The notes under the pieces were generated by a model that saw only the letters and a list, made by a program, of their open reading frames with translations, did no database searches and was not told the origin of the DNA. From a virus, in IMG/VR virus record IMGVR_UViG_3300028837_003302, positions 1 through 38,791 of that record: a stretch of DNA of 38,791 nucleotides, one strand, 5' to 3'. Of the stretch, positions 6,467-38,791 are shown piece by piece. The position numbers and the translations under genes were made by a program. Within the stretch, counting starts at the first letter, position 1. Each line of letters opens with the position of its first letter.

Positions 6467-6691
6467 ATGAAAAAATGGGAATATAAAGTAATCGAGATAG
6501 ACTTAGAAAGAGAGCCAGGAAATACTTCGGAAGAGAAACTGGAGGAGTTCCTTAACCGGGCAGGATCTCTCGGTTGGGAAATGGTAGAGAGAAAAGAAAG
6601 TCCATTTAATATATTCATTCTTAAAAGAGAAAAGGTCGAAAAGAGAGGTAGTCCTCGTAAGAAAAAAAATGTTAAAACTAAACGAAAATGA
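6467..6691 (+). CDS. DUF4177-like small protein
   Basis: A 74-residue protein. The core MKKWEYKVIEIDL, then EEKLEEFLNRAGSLGWEMV and a final strand FNIFILKRE, matches the usual DUF4177 layout (strand, helix ending in GWE, strand). Function is unknown; the family is small and common in bacteria and phages. A basic tail (residues about 58-74) follows. The stop overlaps the groES start in ATGA, so it is the first gene of the chaperonin operon by coupling. Confidence 0.65.
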   Translation: MKKWEYKVIEIDLEREPGNTSEEKLEEFLNRAGSLGWEMVERKESPFNIFILKREKVEKRGSPRKKKNVKTKRK

Positions 6692-6984
6692 GTAAAAAAT
6701 TGTCAATTCAACCTCTTGCTGACTTCCTCTTCTTGAGGTGGGAAAAGCAAAGGGAAACCAAGAAAGGTGTGATACTGTCAGACACTTCAAAGAGCAAGCC
6801 AGCGATAGCGATAGTAGTAGCCATAGGACCAGGGAAACTTGACCGGCACGGCAACTACATCAAGACACAATTAAAGCCCAAAGATAAGGTGGTGGTCGAC
6901 CCCTTCATTCCTCAACTTATAAAGGTAGAAGGCGAGGAATACTGGGTGGTAGAAGAAAATAAAATATTCGCTAAAATAAACTAA
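6688..6984 (+). CDS. groES: Phage-encoded GroES-like co-chaperonin
   Basis: A 98-residue Cpn10. It opens SIQPLADFLFLRWEK, corresponding to the usual RPL.DRVLV strand. ETKKGVILSDTSKSKPAIA corresponds to the mobile loop with the hydrophobic VIL that binds GroEL, then VVAIGPGKLDRHGN matches the roof region and KPKDKVVVDPF the later strand. The length is standard. It caps the GroEL ring and closes the folding cage. It overlaps the DUF4177-like gene by 4 nt and is separated from groEL by one small unknown gene, an unusual order. It is more divergent than host copies generally are, which fits a phage protein. Confidence 0.85.
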   Translation: MSKKLSIQPLADFLFLRWEKQRETKKGVILSDTSKSKPAIAIVVAIGPGKLDRHGNYIKTQLKPKDKVVVDPFIPQLIKVEGEEYWVVEENKIFAKIN

Positions 6985-6991
6985 CAAAAAT

Positions 6992-7309
6992 ATGGAAGAA
7001 GAAAAAATTGAAACAATAGAGAAAGCGACAGTCAAGATGTTTCTCATCAACGAATATAACAATCATCTTCTAAGGTATGTGAAAGCTTTGGTTGAGGCGA
7101 CTTTTACAGCGGGAAGACCTCAAGACGAAATAGTGTTGACGATTATACAAGAGAGTGGAAACCCACAGATTCCTGGGATAGAAAGGAAAATAAAAGCCAA
7201 AGAAGCCCAGAAAAGAGCCCGAGACAGCATAGACAAGCAAGATAGTATCTTAAAAGTCATTGAAAGGTTGATAAAAGAGGAAGATAAAAAAGAAACAAAG
7301 TTTGAATAA
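6992..7309 (+). CDS. Unknown protein encoded between groES and groEL
   Basis: A 105-residue, strongly helical and charged protein. Residues about 15-50 include FLINEYNNHLLRYVKALVEATF, and about 65-105 form a Lys/Glu/Arg-rich helix. No motif is recognised. It begins 7 nt after groES and its stop lies 1 nt before the groEL start, so it is co-translated with the chaperonin. Position suggests a substrate adaptor, a chaperonin modulator or simply a passenger; nothing in the sequence decides this. Confidence 0.55.
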   Translation: MEEEKIETIEKATVKMFLINEYNNHLLRYVKALVEATFTAGRPQDEIVLTIIQESGNPQIPGIERKIKAKEAQKRARDSIDKQDSILKVIERLIKEEDKKETKFE

Positions 7310-7310
7310 C

Positions 7311-8918
7311 ATGGCAAAACAAATACTATTTAGCAACAAAGCTCTAACAAAACTTAAAAAAGGGATAGATATATTAGCGAGTGCAGTGCGCGGAACCCTT
7401 GGACCAAAAGGTAAAGTTGTAGTTTTTAAACGGGGAGAAAATACCTTTGCTGATGATGGTGCAACCATTGTCAATCAGATGGAATTAAAGGATCCAGTTG
7501 AGGCCATGGGGTCGGATTTGATAAAAGATGTTGCCACAAAAACAGACAAGGAAGCAGGGGATGGAACCACGACATCAATCGTCTTAGCTCAGTTCATCCT
7601 AAAGGAGGGATTGAAGGCGATTGCGGCAGGAGCGGACACACTTATTCTTCGAAAGGGATTGAGTGAAGCATTGAGGATAGCAGTCGAAACAATTAAGAAG
7701 ATTTCCAAACCTCTTAAGAATGGAAATGACATTTCAAACATAGGGACAATTGCCTCGAAAGATAATGAGATAGGGAACATAATATCGGAAATCATCAAGA
7801 AAGTCGGCAGGGAGGCTATCATAGCTGTGGAAGAATCAAATGTGATCGGAATGAGCTATGAGATAGTCAAAGGACTCCAATTCGAACATGGATTTATTTC
7901 ACCTTATATGATGACGCATCCAGATAGAGGAGAAGCAATCATTGACAAACCCTACATTTTGACCACAAGCCAAGTGATAAGCACAAACCAAGACATTGTG
8001 AATATACTGGACGAAGTGATACGTTCAGATAGCAAGTCAATAGTAATAATAGCAGATGAGGTTTCTGGAGAAGCATTGCCAACATTAGTTATAAATAAAC
8101 TACAAGGAAGGATAAGGGTGGCTGCAGCAAAAGCTCCTGGATTCGGAGACGAGAAGATGGAACGATTAGAGGATATGGCCATACTGACAGGTGCTAAACT
8201 TATAGCTGAAGAGACCGGAATCAAAGTTGAGGATACAAAGTTGGAAGATTTAGGCCGGGCAGACAGGGTAATCCTGTCCAAAGACAAGACAATCATAGTA
8301 GGAGGAAGAGGAAAGAAATCGGAAATCCAAAAAAGAATAAATCAGCTGGAAACACTCATTAAGAACGAGAAATCAGAGTATCGCAAGGAAATGATGAAGA
8401 AAAGACTGGGGAAACTGAAAGGAGGAGTGGCAATAATTAAAGTCGGGACGATTTCCGAGCAGGAGAACAAAGAGAAGAGATTCAGGATAGAGGATGCTGT
8501 CAAAGCCACAATGTCGGCCATAGAGGAAGGAATAGTCCCAGGGGGAGGAGTGGCGCTCTTGGAATCCTCAAAGAGAATAGAACAGAAGGCAGAAAGAGAG
8601 AAGAACATCAACTTTAGAATGGGAATGGAAATCCTTGCCCAAGCGATAAAAGAACCAGCATACCAGATAGTGAGGAATGCCGGCGGCAAAGAAGACGTAG
8701 TTATTTCAAAGGTCGAGGAAGGCAGGAAGGAAAACTCGTCATTCGGATATAACTCGGACAACGAGACATACGGAGATTTGTTCAAGATGGGAGTGATTGA
8801 TCCGGCTAAAGTAGTGAGAGTGGCATTGGAGAATGCGGTATCAGTAGTGTCTCTATTCCTGATAACCGAGGCGGTGATAGCCGACCTGCCGGAGGAAAAT
8901 AAGAAAAAGAAGAAATAA
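7311..8918 (+). CDS. groEL: Phage-encoded GroEL chaperonin
   Basis: A 535-residue group I chaperonin. I chose the ATG at 7311 (MAKQILFSNKAL) over the in-frame ATG at 7302 because it matches the family N-terminus. Key motifs are GTLGPKGK, ADDG, EAGDGTTTS (ATP site), KAPGFGDEKME in the apical domain and IEDAVKATMSAIEEG followed by VPGGGVALL. The three aspartates expected for ATP hydrolysis are present. The C-terminus ends ENKKKKK instead of the Gly-Gly-Met tail that normally lines the cavity. With groES it should form a complete folding machine, probably for capsid or other large virion proteins. Confidence 0.95.
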   Translation: MAKQILFSNKALTKLKKGIDILASAVRGTLGPKGKVVVFKRGENTFADDGATIVNQMELKDPVEAMGSDLIKDVATKTDKEAGDGTTTSIVLAQFILKEGLKAIAAGADTLILRKGLSEALRIAVETIKKISKPLKNGNDISNIGTIASKDNEIGNIISEIIKKVGREAIIAVEESNVIGMSYEIVKGLQFEHGFISPYMMTHPDRGEAIIDKPYILTTSQVISTNQDIVNILDEVIRSDSKSIVIIADEVSGEALPTLVINKLQGRIRVAAAKAPGFGDEKMERLEDMAILTGAKLIAEETGIKVEDTKLEDLGRADRVILSKDKTIIVGGRGKKSEIQKRINQLETLIKNEKSEYRKEMMKKRLGKLKGGVAIIKVGTISEQENKEKRFRIEDAVKATMSAIEEGIVPGGGVALLESSKRIEQKAEREKNINFRMGMEILAQAIKEPAYQIVRNAGGKEDVVISKVEEGRKENSSFGYNSDNETYGDLFKMGVIDPAKVVRVALENAVSVVSLFLITEAVIADLPEENKKKKK

Positions 8919-30667: not shown

Positions 30668-33600
30668 ATGGCATTAACTTTTCCTAAATTAAAACTACCG
30701 GCATTGCCTAAACTTCCTCATCTTGGAGGCAAGCCAGAGGGGATTTTAGGATTAGAGGACAGAAAGGTTGAGGAGACCAAGCCAAGCATTTTGGATACTC
30801 TTAGGATTGGTGGATTGCCCCAATTGGAGAAAATTGAGCCAATGGGGGTGACACCAAGAATGGTTATTAAAGAAATCCCAAAAGCAACAGAAAAAGTAGG
30901 AACAGCGATTGGAAAATTTATATTAGAATCTTTTGCTCCTGTTGTGATACCGACCTACAAAAAAGTAAAAGCAGGAAAATCGCTATGGGTGGCATATAAA
31001 GAATCTTATAAAGAATTGGATGAAAAAGAAAAAGAAGTTGCAAATACGATTGCCAAAGAATACGAGGAGGCAGAGAAAAAAGGAGCTTCAACGTGGGAAT
31101 TAAGTAAAATAGCATCAAATTCACCAATAGCTCAAAAGATTGCCCTTTCAACATTTTATTTTATAGGTGGAATGAAATTTACCTCTTTGGAAAAAATGAC
31201 TTCAGATTTGGCAAGAAATGTTTTGAAGGTAGGGAAAAAAGCTACAGAGAAAGAAATTCAATCAGCATTTAGGACAGCAATTCATAAGCCTGAGATACGA
31301 AATATATTAACTGGATTATCAAAGAAGTCGGGAGCAAAAGAAATGAACATACTAACAAAAGCAAGAGATGTTTTATTAAAAAGAATACCTAAGAAAATTC
31401 CAACCAAGCCCTTAGCTTTGCCTGGAATAAAAGAAGTTAAACTAAAAATCAAGCCAAAATCAATAACACAACTCCGGAAAGAAATAAAGCTGGAGATAAA
31501 AACAAAAGCCGAACAACAAAAGTTCCTTCAAAACTTAAAAAAGGACATAACTATAGCAATAGAAAAAACCAATTATCAAAGAACAAAAGATTTATTAAAA
31601 CTTCAAACAGAGATAGAAACAGAAATATTAAAAAAAAGAATAGGAAAGGCCAGTATTAATCAAATAAGAGAAGTTTCCTTCATCGCTAAAAGGAAAGCTC
31701 TTATCACTCCAGAAGGAAAATCAACTCCACAATATCGAAAATTGGCGAGGGCAATAACAGATGAAAGCAGAATAAAAAATATGACAGAGATAGAGGCCGA
31801 TGCTTTTATTAATGCCCTTAAGAGAATTGCTGAACCAAAATACATAAAAGGAAAGTTAGTTCCACCTTCTATTCCGATTACTACAAAAATTGTCCCAAAA
31901 GGATTTTTTGAGGGAATGAAATTTAAAGAGCCGACTATTGTAAGGATTGTAACCCCTCAAACCTATTATTCCCAGGTTTTAGGGGTAAAACCATTGGTTG
32001 AACCTTTGGAACTGGCAAAGCAAAGATTTGATTTGAGATATAGAGACATGTCCAATGGTGTGGATAAGATGATTAAATTGGTAGATAAGGTTAGCAGAAC
32101 ATCTTTCCAAGAAAAAGCAAGGGCAAAAACAAGAAACATCCCCACAAAAGCAGTTTCTGAAATGAGAGATTTGTTGGACAAATACGAGGAAGCTCCCGCA
32201 AATTTATCGCCAGAAAAAAAAGAAATCTTTAATTGGTTCAGAAGCTTGAACAGAGAGATGTTAAAAGCCCAGAATGAAATCAGGGAGAAGATAGAGTTAA
32301 ATCCAATTAGATACCGCAAGGCCTATGTGAGGCATACTGCCGATTCTATGGCCCAAGAGATGCTCCAAGGGAAATATCCATTCCCTGAGGGATTAAAATA
32401 TTGGTCAGGAAGAGTAGTCGGGAAAAAGATATTCAACCCGATGGAATTTCAAAGACAATTAGCTGAGGATTTAGAAGGATTATGGACAAAAGACTTGGCT
32501 CATGCCACCAAATCGATGATTTGGACTGGATTGAAAGAAATACATTTAGATCAGCCATTACAATCTTTTAATGAACAGTTAGGAGCAATCTCAAAAGATA
32601 TTTCTGTCTATAAAAATCTGACCCCAGAAGAACAGGAAATTTATAACCAAATAAGGACAATCCCCGCCTCCACTAAGAAATGGCTCATTGATTATGTAAA
32701 CCAGGTTATCAAGGGACAGGAAACCTGGCTGGATGAACAAGTAAACAATGTGGTTACCAAGACAGGTCTCAGCGGTTTGCTTAATAAAGTATTGGCTCCT
32801 TTCGGAAGAACAATAGGAAGGAAGCCAATTACTGACATTTTTCAAATAGGAGGAAGGGTAATGATTCACGGAGTAATGGGGCCAATAAGACCCAAGCAAC
32901 TCATTAGAAATAAATTTCAGTTAACTCAGAATTTGGCCTTGTATACCATAAAGGCGAATCTAAAAGGATTCTATCCTGTATCGGCTAATAAAACCTTGAA
33001 AGAATTGATGGATAAAAGTCTATTCTTAAAAACCTATACTGGAATCGAAGAATTGCCTCAGAATCTTCAAGGAAAATTAGAAAAATTAAATCTTGCTGCC
33101 TTTCAATGGACTGCATCTTCTAATGTTGCTCAGGCTATGAAGGTCGCTTACTGGGATACTCTTGATTTAATTACTAATCCTAAATATAAAAATCTTGGAT
33201 GGGCTGATCCAGAAAGAACATACAAAGAAGCAAAAGGGTTTCTATACCCGAGCGAAAAAGAAAAACTCCTTAAAGAGATGGAGTTCGGAGCCGGGGTGAC
33301 CCAATATCATTATATTGCGATGGGAATGCCTGAAGTATTCAGGCACAAAGCTCTTGTTCCTCTAACCAGACTACAGAGTTGGTGGATGAACTACTTTTTC
33401 AAATTCAACAGGGAGGCGATTACAAGGGCGATTACCGGGAAGACGGGCTATGGGATGAAATTGCCTTGGTCAAGAAGATTAGGATGGTTTAGGTACTTGA
33501 TATTGGGAGGACTAATATTGAATACTTTGGGATACGAAAAAAGCTATTTATGGGGAGTAGCCCCAACAGGTACTCCTCCGACTGCTCAATTTATGGCAGG

Positions 33601-34351
33601 ATTGTATACATACCTAACGACCCTTCCTAATCTTGATGAAGACTGGGCGAAGAAAAAGAATACTCAAGCCAAAAAGCAAATGTTTTATGCGATGAAGACT
33701 TTTGTACCAGGATACCTGGCTTGGAAAGATTTCATGGGACTATGGAGCGGAGAAAAATCTTGGGATGAATACTTCTTTTATAAAAAGGGCAAAGAAAAAA
33801 AAGAAGGGGGGGGAGGATTGCCAAAATTGCCGGAACTTCCACCATTTCCTAAATCACCATCACTTCCCAAATTACCATCATTTACTGAAGTCAAGCAGAG
33901 TACAGAAAAAATCCCCCGAGTCAAGGAGAACAAAGAGGTTAAGGAGTCCAGTGTCTTGGATACTATACTGCTTTATGCCAAGTCTATAGGCACAGATCCA
34001 CACACCGCATTCAACAGGATATTCACTGGCCAGAGGATAAGAAGGATAGATAACAACACTATAATAGTAGAGAGAATGCCATTTTCGGAGTCGGAGGCCG
34101 TGAAGGAGAAGCAAGGGGCTGGCGGAGATATGGTTTTGGACCACACGATACCCCTGCAACTGGGAGGATCCAACAACAAGGGGAACTTAAAGATAGTTTC
34201 AGTTGATGAGTGGGAATCATACACCCCCATTGAGAATTACCTCGGAGGACTTTTAAGGAACGACAGGATTACGAAACGAAAGTCCCAACAACTGATAAGG
34301 GATTTCAAAGAAGGCAAAATAAGTTCTGAGGAAATTTATCGGATAAAATAA
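30668..34351 (+). CDS. Giant internal virion protein with C-terminal HNH nuclease domain
   Basis: A 1227-residue protein. It opens with a Pro/Leu/Lys repeat (FPKLKLPALPKLPHLGG) that recurs near residue 1050 (GLPKLPELPPFPKSPSLPKL). In between are long Lys-rich helical regions and an apparently membrane-interacting segment (LGWFRYLILGGLILNTLG near 935-960), as expected for proteins ejected to form a trans-envelope channel. The last 76 residues hold VLDHTIPLQLGGSNNKGNLK with D1158-H1159 and N1173, then a helical tail (LLRNDRITKRKSQQLIRDF), as in HNH toxin-type nucleases. So a nuclease is likely delivered with the genome or acts in packaging. Confidence 0.75.
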   Translation: MALTFPKLKLPALPKLPHLGGKPEGILGLEDRKVEETKPSILDTLRIGGLPQLEKIEPMGVTPRMVIKEIPKATEKVGTAIGKFILESFAPVVIPTYKKVKAGKSLWVAYKESYKELDEKEKEVANTIAKEYEEAEKKGASTWELSKIASNSPIAQKIALSTFYFIGGMKFTSLEKMTSDLARNVLKVGKKATEKEIQSAFRTAIHKPEIRNILTGLSKKSGAKEMNILTKARDVLLKRIPKKIPTKPLALPGIKEVKLKIKPKSITQLRKEIKLEIKTKAEQQKFLQNLKKDITIAIEKTNYQRTKDLLKLQTEIETEILKKRIGKASINQIREVSFIAKRKALITPEGKSTPQYRKLARAITDESRIKNMTEIEADAFINALKRIAEPKYIKGKLVPPSIPITTKIVPKGFFEGMKFKEPTIVRIVTPQTYYSQVLGVKPLVEPLELAKQRFDLRYRDMSNGVDKMIKLVDKVSRTSFQEKARAKTRNIPTKAVSEMRDLLDKYEEAPANLSPEKKEIFNWFRSLNREMLKAQNEIREKIELNPIRYRKAYVRHTADSMAQEMLQGKYPFPEGLKYWSGRVVGKKIFNPMEFQRQLAEDLEGLWTKDLAHATKSMIWTGLKEIHLDQPLQSFNEQLGAISKDISVYKNLTPEEQEIYNQIRTIPASTKKWLIDYVNQVIKGQETWLDEQVNNVVTKTGLSGLLNKVLAPFGRTIGRKPITDIFQIGGRVMIHGVMGPIRPKQLIRNKFQLTQNLALYTIKANLKGFYPVSANKTLKELMDKSLFLKTYTGIEELPQNLQGKLEKLNLAAFQWTASSNVAQAMKVAYWDTLDLITNPKYKNLGWADPERTYKEAKGFLYPSEKEKLLKEMEFGAGVTQYHYIAMGMPEVFRHKALVPLTRLQSWWMNYFFKFNREAITRAITGKTGYGMKLPWSRRLGWFRYLILGGLILNTLGYEKSYLWGVAPTGTPPTAQFMAGLYTYLTTLPNLDEDWAKKKNTQAKKQMFYAMKTFVPGYLAWKDFMGLWSGEKSWDEYFFYKKGKEKKEGGGGLPKLPELPPFPKSPSLPKLPSFTEVKQSTEKIPRVKENKEVKESSVLDTILLYAKSIGTDPHTAFNRIFTGQRIRRIDNNTIIVERMPFSESEAVKEKQGAGGDMVLDHTIPLQLGGSNNKGNLKIVSVDEWESYTPIENYLGGLLRNDRITKRKSQQLIRDFKEGKISSEEIYRIK

Positions 34352-34972: not shown

Positions 34973-34984
34973 TCATCTCAAGAA

Positions 34985-35065
34985 TCGGGGCATCTATTCT
35001 ATTTAAGAAGTCATACTTTCTAAGAAAGCAAAGGTTCTTAAAACAAAAGAGTAGCTCTGCCCCGA
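34985..35065 (+). promoter_or_regulatory. Nested hairpin leader before the LAGLIDADG-containing gene
   Basis: TCGGGGCA (34985-34992) pairs with TGCCCCGA (35058-35065). Inside, TAAGAA (35004-35009) pairs with TTCTTA (35035-35040), and CTTTC (35016-35020) with GAAAG (35024-35028). The outer stem ends 10 nt before the ATG at 35076. No T tract follows, so a role in translation or RNA processing is more likely than termination. Confidence 0.5.
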
Positions 35066-35075
35066 CCATATAATT

Positions 35076-36239
35076 ATGCTAACAACTAAAGAAAAACTAT
35101 TCGCAAATTTAATAGGGAACTTCCATACTTATTCCCGCAATATGGCGAGAATGATAGTTAAACCAAAACCGATAGTCAAATCAAAACAAGAATTAAAAGA
35201 TTTCATTAAGGGATTAGGTTTTGGCATTACTCCTTCCCTACACGACCAAGAATACTATTTTGATACTTGGGATAAATGGCTCAAAGCAATAGAAATTGAT
35301 TGGACTAATATGAATAAATACATTACGGATGCTTATGATTGTAAAATTCCCTCTGAATTAGCTTTTGCTTGGGGACTATTTTTTAGTGATGGTTCTTGTG
35401 GGCTTCGTAAAGGAAAAGCTTGTGGAGCTTGGTGGAATATAGTCAATTCAAACCTGAGTTACTTAAAAAGAGCTAAAAAGGCATTAGACAAAGAACATAA
35501 AGAATTAGTTTTTAAAATTAAAGAATATCCTTATTATCAAAAAGGTAGAGTAACCAATTATGGTCCAAGAAAAAAAACTTTATATCGTTTAGAAGCAACC
35601 TTAAACAAAAAAAACCAAAAAATAGACAAATGGGGAAAGCCTTTTAATAGTAATGGTGGAGCAAGAAAAAAACTAATTGAACTTTATAGACACTTATTTT
35701 ATAAAAGGAGCAAGAAAAAAACACCATCTACCCTATACGATAAATATTATTGGCAAAGAGTAAAATACCTTGAAGGTGTTATTGCTGGAGATGGGTGCGA
35801 AAAGGGAAAATATATTTCAGTTGGATATTCTAATCAAAATGGAGCTTATGAATTAGCAGAACTTATGAATAGCTTAGGTTGGAAATACCGAATTGATGAA
35901 TTTAAAAACAAAGAATGGAGAATTTACTATACAAAAGTTAAAGGAAAATGGAAACCTTGGTTTTGTGATAACTTCGCTGATTCTTTTAATGCCCGAATGT
36001 CAGAGTATTACGGCTGGAATACATCAGGAAGGTTGAGTGTTGCTTTGTATAGACCGAATACTAATAAAATAATCGGCTATCACAGAGCAAGTATAATCGT
36101 AGTCAAGGAAGGCCCGGTTTTAAGAGCTTATGCTTATGACCCGATGATTGGAATGGAAGACAAATACGACAAAATTGAGAAGGCATTTATCCAAATTAAG
36201 AACTGGATCTATAAACCGAACTTTATTTCGTTTAATTGA
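35076..36239 (+). CDS. Cys/His hydrolase-like lysis protein interrupted in frame by a LAGLIDADG endonuclease
   Basis: A 387-residue protein. Two LAGLIDADG motifs, LAFAWGLFFSDGS (95-107) and YLEGVIAGDG (231-240), mark a two-motif homing endonuclease. The flanks look like one split domain: YITDAYDC ends at C89, and CDNFADSFNARMSEYYGWNT restarts at C297. Joining them gives YDCDNFAD, as in Cys/His hydrolases, with IIGYHRASIIVV (H336) and AYAYDPMIG (D355) as possible partners. The insert is 208 residues, too short to hold intein splicing blocks plus the endonuclease, and lacks the His-Asn end. It lies amid lysis genes, so the host gene may be a wall hydrolase. Confidence 0.65.
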   Translation: MLTTKEKLFANLIGNFHTYSRNMARMIVKPKPIVKSKQELKDFIKGLGFGITPSLHDQEYYFDTWDKWLKAIEIDWTNMNKYITDAYDCKIPSELAFAWGLFFSDGSCGLRKGKACGAWWNIVNSNLSYLKRAKKALDKEHKELVFKIKEYPYYQKGRVTNYGPRKKTLYRLEATLNKKNQKIDKWGKPFNSNGGARKKLIELYRHLFYKRSKKKTPSTLYDKYYWQRVKYLEGVIAGDGCEKGKYISVGYSNQNGAYELAELMNSLGWKYRIDEFKNKEWRIYYTKVKGKWKPWFCDNFADSFNARMSEYYGWNTSGRLSVALYRPNTNKIIGYHRASIIVVKEGPVLRAYAYDPMIGMEDKYDKIEKAFIQIKNWIYKPNFISFN

Positions 36240-36240
36240 G

Positions 36241-36348
36241 ATGAGCTACGAAAAATACATAAAAATTATTATCAGTCTCGTAGGAATAGTAATCTGATTA
36301 AGTATTATGTCTTTTGTAGGGTTGGTTATTTATGTGGTGATTAGATAG
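36241..36348 (+). pseudogene. Tiny membrane-protein ORF interrupted by an in-frame TGA
   Basis: ATG 36241 gives MSYEKYIKIIISLVGIVI and stops at TGA (36295-36297). The same frame continues LSIMSFVGLVIYVVIR to TAG at 36348. Together these form one 35-residue single-membrane-span protein with one stop, as if a Trp codon had become TGA or the stop is read through. Elsewhere in the window TGA is used as a normal stop. A restart at ATG 36307 could give a shorter peptide. Possibly an inactive or fine-tuned holin-like protein. Confidence 0.4.
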
Positions 36349-36356
36349 TTCTTTTC

Positions 36357-36422
36357 TTGCTGGAAGTGTTAGGCATTAAAACTTCGGAAGGAACATGCCA
36401 GTGGCTTCCGAGCTTCCAGCAA
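36357..36422 (+). promoter_or_regulatory. Closed stem with possible H-type pseudoknot before the holin gene
   Basis: TTGCTGGAAG (36357-36366) pairs perfectly with CTTCCAGCAA (36413-36422). Within it, GGCAT (36372-36376) can pair with ATGCC (36395-36399), and CGGAAG (36385-36390) with CTTCCG (36405-36410); the two interleave, giving a pseudoknot or two alternative folds. It lies 48 nt before the holin ATG. Confidence 0.5.
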
Positions 36423-36436
36423 AAAGGGAATTATTT

Positions 36437-36469: not shown

Positions 36470-36667
36470 ATGAAATCAATATATAAAAGCAAGACTCTTT
36501 GGTTTAACTTACTGGCTTTGATTCTAATGATAGCTGGGAATTTCGGATTTAAAGAATTCATACCTTCTCTTTGGGTAAATGATGTTGGCGTAGCGTTGAT
36601 AATAATTATCAATCTGATTTTGAGATTTCTAACCAAACAGCCAGTTAAGTTTTCTCTAAAAAAATAG
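36470..36667 (+). CDS. Holin-like membrane protein
   Basis: A 65-residue protein with two membrane segments (about residues 10-28, LWFNLLALILMIAGNFGF, and about 37-53, VNDVGVALIIIINLILR) and a basic C-terminus ending KQPVKFSLKK, the usual holin layout. It would open the inner membrane for the downstream transglycosylase. Its last two Lys codons form the slippery A AAA AAA directly before the TAG, and the -1 frame runs on into the transglycosylase ORF. Confidence 0.7.
   Translation: MKSIYKSKTLWFNLLALILMIAGNFGFKEFIPSLWVNDVGVALIIIINLILRFLTKQPVKFSLKK
36658..36664 (+). other. Possible -1 ribosomal frameshift site (A AAA AAA) at the holin stop
   Basis: Seven As end the holin gene in the phase CTA AAA AAA TAG. 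A -1 slip continues as ATA GAT GGG AAG GCG, and the frame stays open through IDGKAIILLPILLVLWTSQ into the transglycosylase. That ORF has no ATG or GTG between the preceding in-frame stop and the TTG at 36688. No clear stimulatory structure follows, and A runs are common here, so this is a hypothesis. Confidence 0.4.
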
Positions 36668-38328: not shown

Positions 38329-38514
38329 ATGAAAAACAATCCTAATATAAAGCACGAAGAAAGAGATAAAAGAATTTATGAAATGTATAAGAAAACCGCT
38401 TATACTTTTCGAGGTTTAGGAAAATTATTTAGATTAAGTCATCCAAGAATTATTGCTATTGTAAAAGAATATGAGAAAAAAGAGAAAGAAAGAAAGCTAT
38501 CAAGAGATAGCTAA
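38329..38514 (+). CDS. Small helix-turn-helix protein
   Basis: A 61-residue basic protein. ATG 38329 is used; the TTG at 38284 lies inside the promoter. RDKRIYEMYKKTAYTFRGLG, then KLFRLSHPRIIAIVKEYE, is a helix-turn-helix like region 4 of sigma factors or homeodomain-like repressors. It may regulate the integrase or early promoters. It overlaps the next gene by 44 nt in another frame. Confidence 0.6.
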   Translation: MKNNPNIKHEERDKRIYEMYKKTAYTFRGLGKLFRLSHPRIIAIVKEYEKKEKERKLSRDS

Positions 38515-38791
38515 TTATTGGGGTGTTTCCCGGCAAAGAGTTCATCAAGTTTTAACTGGTTATCGTTCAAAATACGCATCAAAAGAAGCAATTTTAAAAC
38601 GAGATCATTATCGATGCCAAAAATGTGGAGAAGACAAGGAAGAACTTTTAGACATACATCATATTCTTCCACGAAATTTTGGTGGCACAAACAGAAAAGA
38701 AAATTTAATAGTTTTGTGTAATAGATGTCATCATAAGGAACATTGGAAAATTATCAATAAAGCTTTAAAGCTTTATTATAAGAGAAAATGA
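38471..38791 (+). CDS. HTH-HNH endonuclease
   Basis: A 106-residue protein. The N-terminal helix-turn-helix SYQEIANYWGVSRQRVHQVL (about 9-28) is followed by an HNH nuclease with C49 and C52 (CQKC), DIHHILPRNFGGTNRKENL (D61, H63, H64, N78) and CNRCHHKEH (C83, C86, H91). The HTH resembles that in the overlapping upstream gene, so the two may derive from one HTH module. Sequence-guided homing or restriction-like activity is possible. It ends on the last base of the window. Confidence 0.8.
   Translation: MRKKRKKESYQEIANYWGVSRQRVHQVLTGYRSKYASKEAILKRDHYRCQKCGEDKEELLDIHHILPRNFGGTNRKENLIVLCNRCHHKEHWKIINKALKLYYKRK

Follow-up and report, generated by a model that had tools for sequence, protein, structure and literature searches.

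The window analysed in this study is a whole virus record in one piece (38,791 bases), which carries genes for terminase, portal, capsid, tail proteins, GroES/GroEL and integrase. On its plus strand, an ORF of 387 aa at 35076-36239 is open through both junctions of an insertion. The N-terminal flank (35076-35342, residues 1-89) forms the start of a MOA-like protease domain and ends in ...DAYDC. The insert (35343-35966, equivalently 35340-35963) comprises 208 codons with the two motifs of a LAGLIDADG endonuclease, and is followed by the C-terminal flank (35967-36239, residues 298-387 and the stop codon), which contains the DNFAD helix, His336 (codon 36081-36083) and Asp355 (codon 36138-36140). 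The catalytic Cys codon, TGT, occurs in two copies, the upstream one encoding Cys89 (35340-35342) and the downstream one Cys297 (35964-35966).

Strong hairpins are found on both sides of this ORF. The first lies immediately 5′ of it (34980-35075, -29.4 kcal/mol, z -5.3), with arms TCGGGGCA and TGCCCCGA; it matched no Rfam family and occurs in one copy among the sequences fetched. The second (36345-36435, -36.0 kcal/mol, z -5.8), for which no Rfam family was found either, is located about 100 nt past the ORF and ahead of a holin-like gene at 36470-36667 (phrog_34682, E 0.005). The sequence-only reading had called the 35076-36239 ORF a lysis enzyme, which is an unproven guess from this holin-like ORF and the other neighbours only. 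Upstream, a 1227-aa protein (30668-34351) has a final stretch of about 150 residues that looks HNH-like (HTIPLQLGGSNNKGNL) and lies outside the part common to the 70%-identical relative L011; this protein is possibly a nuclease fusion. At 38471-38791, a small protein combines an HNH nuclease with a helix-turn-helix resembling that of sigma-70 region 4.

GroES- and GroEL-like genes occupy 6688-8918 of this 39-kb virus. The best identity of the virus GroEL was 50% to chaperonins of the Nealsonbacteria phylum (GroEL present in 104/116 genomes) and 49% to those of the Woesearchaeota phylum (18/119 genomes). Relatives of the terminase were found in MAGs labelled Nealsonbacteria, Parcubacteria and Woesearchaeota. 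The terminase relatives point to a candidate host among Patescibacteria and also to one contig labelled Woesearchaeota; the GroEL comparison is not decisive.

C89 and C297 are separated by 207 residues; together with either one of these cysteines, the insertion amounts to 208 codons. Both ends share the 4 nt TTGT (35339-35342 and 35963-35966), and thus the junction can be placed only to within these four bases. We scored 400 possible joins of the flanks with a profile made from uninterrupted homologues only. The top join was removal of residues 90-297 (identical to removal of 89-296) with 75.3 bits and E 1e-22; the runner-up among different joins reached 70.1 bits, and the unjoined 387-aa protein 64.1 bits. 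An unguided MAFFT alignment placed a single gap between C89 and D298. Removal of residues 90-297 restores YDCDNFAD, and the host gene neither gains nor loses residues.

Uninterrupted relatives of the host gene were obtained with two patterns. A DNA pattern for YDCDNFA, which is able to find uninterrupted genes only, gave 44 stretches in viral contigs, about thirty of which encode uninterrupted homologues of the joined flanks; L033 and L058 showed 40-41% identity to them (E 6e-29), and L049 is another uninterrupted example. The second pattern, DWTDxKKY, lies roughly 12 codons ahead of the site and is hence independent of the insertion. It gave 19 stretches with 14 family members, all of them (14/14) uninterrupted, among them the close relative L104 (43% over 111 residues). 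Alleles of this gene are therefore normally insert-free, and no interrupted one is known apart from that of the window. At the empty site, 14-19 of the central 22 bp were matched in distant insert-free relatives. Neither the full protein nor its joined flanks, used directly as protein queries, found a real relative in viral contigs or cultured phages; L002 was rejected because it matches another phage protein by chance, and matches in cultured phages at E 0.1-10 were not real. With two members as queries, the family was not found in the cultured-phage collection, from which it appears to be absent, and a scan of the genome collection for the flank family gave no confirmed relatives.

By profile and alignment, the flanks belong to the MOA/PSL family of papain-like proteases. 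Among uninterrupted viral members, 14/16 match PF18022 and 11/16 match PF18021, and the viral family profile matched Polyporus squamosus lectin and Marasmius oreades agglutinin in the PDB (3phz, 2iho) at 2.5e-13 and 1.1e-11, with an alignment that covers their papain-like protease domain. The joined window flanks alone fell below Pfam significance. Counted along the printed alignment, the interrupted Cys aligns with Cys215 of MOA and the conserved His with His257; Cys215 is the catalytic nucleophile of MOA, and the role of His257 is taken from the same work (PMC4764322). At the position of MOA Glu274, which is near-invariant as Glu across the viral family and is Glu in all uninterrupted relatives examined, the window protein has Asp355, a conservative change. 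Ca-dependent proteolysis is a feature of the MOA/PSL family. Domains of this type, known from fungal chimerolectins, are frequent in uncultivated viral contigs (L015, L034, L044, L058 and others). We also considered decay of the flanks and rejected it: they depart from conserved positions at 5/20, including E-to-D and N-to-S changes, which is not distinguishable from ordinary divergence, as the uninterrupted L104 departs at 8/21.

Predicted structures gave a similar picture. The model of L058 (pLDDT 88) matched PSL1a with Z 12.4 (rmsd 2.9, 127 residues) and MOA with Z 11.7, the next fold reaching 7.1; MOA was not among the matches listed by Foldseek for L058, and was found by the second structural comparison. 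In this model the catalytic Cys opens helix H91-106, which puts the insertion at the boundary of the catalytic helix and the loop (YD) ahead of it. In the AlphaFold model of the unspliced window protein, residues 33-386 retained the MOA fold (Z 10.4; 124 residues aligned at rmsd 3.0 Å). Residues 116-291 matched PI-SceI and I-DmoI, with the nuclease placed outside the protease fold and the protease pocket adjoining the insertion. The nuclease part is a low-confidence model, with Z 7.0 to PI-SceI over 102 residues and rmsd 5.6. Since the alignment given to AlphaFold consisted of insert-free homologues and the insert was poorly predicted (pLDDT under 50 in residues 90-124), this looped-out picture is partly built in.

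These results agree with much of what had been read from the letters. The proposed insertion between C89 and C297, with YDCDNFAD restored on joining, corresponds to the best of the 400 joins and to the MAFFT gap, and alignment to MOA Cys215 supports the view of the interrupted residue as a probable catalytic cysteine. A search for insert-free relatives had been suggested, and viral contigs supplied about thirty; far from being unrelated, or present only in homologues of the same full-length domain order, both flanks belong to one domain with uninterrupted homologues. The description of the flanks as Cys/His-hydrolase-like holds for the Cys/His motif, and is refined here from a generic hydrolase to a MOA/PSL papain-like protease.

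The insert accounts for the sole Pfam match of the ORF, LAGLIDADG_3 (PF14528, residues 227-286, E 3.4e-5, above the Pfam cut-off), which covers its second motif, YLEGVIAGDG (35766-35795, residues 231-240). The first motif, LAFAWGLFFSDG (35358-35393, residues 95-106), was identified by reading and has no profile match of its own. The acidic residue is intact in both motifs (D105 and D239). GC3 is 0.18 in the insert, as against 0.29 and 0.41 in the flanks, which points to another origin of the insert. Its reading frame runs through 208 codons without a stop and continues into the downstream flank, and the other two frames contain 15 and 24 stops. No in-frame ATG, GTG or TTG occurs between the start of the insert and residue 264; with neither its own start in this region nor a stop, the endonuclease must be made as a fusion. 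To look for relatives of the nuclease, we scanned 380 genomes from the Nealsonbacteria phylum and 371 from the Woesearchaeota phylum, and all matches were too weak to be usable. No homologue with the same arrangement of protease and endonuclease was found in viral contigs or cultured phages, leaving the window as the single interrupted allele known.

Features of an intein were also searched for in the 387-aa protein. No Hint domain was found at E up to 1, and the same scan detected Hom_end_hint in the LAGLIDADG intein of phage BS-TP3 at E 5.7e-4. Only a few residues of the insert lie outside the LAGLIDADG fold, and Trp-Phe precedes C297 in place of the C-terminal His-Asn of inteins.

We consider it probable, at modest confidence, that a lone, non-splicing LAGLIDADG homing endonuclease has been inserted at the catalytic Cys codon of an accessory viral MOA-type protease and is translated with it as one fusion. 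According to this model, the endonuclease would have moved in frame into the catalytic-cysteine codon of the protease gene, bringing no splicing element. Translation from the protease start would then yield a single 387-residue fusion, in which the endonuclease would be looped out between the YD loop and the catalytic helix. The insert may cleave insert-free alleles at YDCDNFA, the most conserved stretch of the gene, and would spread when it is copied in by repair, and a frame open at both ends would keep the whole gene translatable. The protease of this virus is probably impaired or inactive, although its flanks depart only mildly from conserved positions. Loss of the protease gene seems tolerable because the related virus L011 lacks the gene altogether. 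However, an insertion at the nucleophile would normally be costly without excision, and this explains the preference of inteins and introns for such positions. Moreover, only one interrupted allele is known.

The alternative that survives best, although unlikely, is an RNA intron, which may be of group I with its core hidden in the endonuclease frame, or archaeal with a bulge-helix-bulge cut by the tRNA endonuclease. Both the insertion site and its exactness are typical of introns, and in its length of 624 nt and its compact LAGLIDADG frame the element is similar to archaeal rRNA introns. In addition, the first Foldseek match of the full model was the archaeal, intron-encoded I-Tsp061I, a weak match at E 0.016, and the terminase relative in a Woesearchaeota-labelled MAG leaves an archaeal host conceivable. 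Endonuclease frames that overlap the intron core are known, and many group I introns carry an in-frame stop (PMC3984707). At this locus, however, the frame runs on through the downstream junction, for which an intron would have no need. Searches at E up to 5 and 10 with the group I core (RF00028) gave no match, group I and group II both being negative; as a control, the Team1 phage recA introns were detected in this way at E 0.025, and a very divergent core could be missed. None of the joins that restore YDCDNFAD shows a U before the intron together with a G at its end, and P1/guide pairing is lacking at these joins as well. The best bulge-helix-bulge score at the junctions was 8, which about 19% of 5000 random positions also reach, and the RNA of the insert region folded no more stably than shuffled sequences (z +0.99). 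We also rejected translational bypassing from one TGT codon to the other, which is implausible over 624 nt; the well-known phage bypassing case skips 50 nt.

More generally, the 208-codon element may be excised at the RNA or protein level with neither a Hint domain nor a group I core nor a bulge-helix-bulge, so that intact protease is made. We regard this as improbable; if true, such an element would represent a new kind of splicing homing element. We consider it quite improbable that the endonuclease has ceased to be selfish and now belongs to a stable functional fusion, such as a DNA-targeted protease or a regulator. In the model the added domain lies outside a preserved protease fold, and the Cys, the His and the motif are intact, but the arrangement is represented by one instance with no homologue, and the composition of the insert suggests recent arrival. 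Very improbable is a dead end, in which capture mediated by the TTGT microhomology, or an assembly chimera, broke the gene. The 4-nt direct repeat at the two ends, the single instance and the E-to-D and N-to-S changes at conserved flank positions are in line with such an event, whereas an insertion that is exact to the codon and hits the most conserved position, a frame kept over 208 codons and intact motif residues argue against it. Least probable of all is a highly reduced or new protein-splicing element with Cys89 as residue 1, Cys297 as +1 and chemistry from a non-Hint source: Cys stands at both junctions, the insert is in frame on both sides and its exact excision regenerates the catalytic motif, but no Hint domain is detected by a scan that works on its control, little remains outside the LAGLIDADG fold, the terminal Asn and penultimate His are missing, and one of the two cysteines is accounted for by the protease's own Cys.

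The sequence-only reading had noted the lack of intein splicing blocks and WF rather than HN before C297, which the Hint scan with its working control confirms. Of its three alternatives, a tolerated (or inactivating) insertion is the best supported; an intron with an open frame is conceivable but received no positive evidence, and a novel self-splicing element has nothing beyond position in its favour.

Mobile nucleases are thought to persist inside coding genes mainly through an accompanying splicing device. For an exact insertion at the nucleophile without such a device, either an expendable host gene lets the insertion persist, or a mechanism of removal has been missed. The protease gene is small, and its insert-free relatives can serve as controls. 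The present data also reveal, in many uncultivated viruses, relatives of the protease domain that fungal MOA-type chimerolectins carry.

The lone, non-splicing endonuclease favoured here can be compared with several known systems. The flanks share with the C-terminal protease of MOA/PSL1a (PF18021, PF18022) the Cys, the His, a conserved motif and the predicted fold; in contrast, the window protein has no lectin domain, has Asp at the Glu274 position and is interrupted by the insert. LAGLIDADG inteins, such as that in the BS-TP3 protein annotated as terminase (L063), are also in frame on both sides, with end cysteines and a conserved site, but the window insert has neither a Hint domain nor the terminal His-Asn. 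Group I introns with LAGLIDADG ORFs (Team1 recA, L064) and archaeal introns (I-DmoI, I-Tsp061I) likewise combine a compact nuclease with a conserved coding site, whereas the window shows no ribozyme core, no P1 or terminal G and no bulge-helix-bulge, and its frame is open into the downstream exon.

Insertions in other phage genes are closer. The ShiLan insertion hides an out-of-frame HNH (PMC11855218). It resembles the window in being an in-frame insertion in a phage gene, between conserved residues, with no stop and no Hint domain or intron; however, its HNH nuclease is encoded in another frame, and the nuclease of the window is in the frame of the host gene. In actinophage methylases (Taj gp79 and relatives), a second LAGLIDADG endonuclease of 139 aa is located outside any intein (PMC9957025), and this insertion was later described as lone, with no detectable intein or intron (PMC11855218). 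The window shares with this type a LAGLIDADG domain inserted in frame at a conserved site of a phage enzyme gene, the lack of a Hint domain and of a detectable intron, the existence of insert-free homologues and a host gene that is dispensable in relatives. The Taj-type insertion, in contrast, appears vertically inherited, whereas that of the window is a 208-aa, two-motif nuclease in a protease, is placed exactly at the catalytic nucleophile and is known once. Since lone in-frame LAGLIDADG insertions have been reported in mycobacteriophage methylases (PMC9957025, PMC11855218), the window represents a variant of a scarcely described kind. On present evidence it is not a new category, and it fits the description of the Taj type in a different gene, with a two-motif nuclease, at the catalytic nucleophile.
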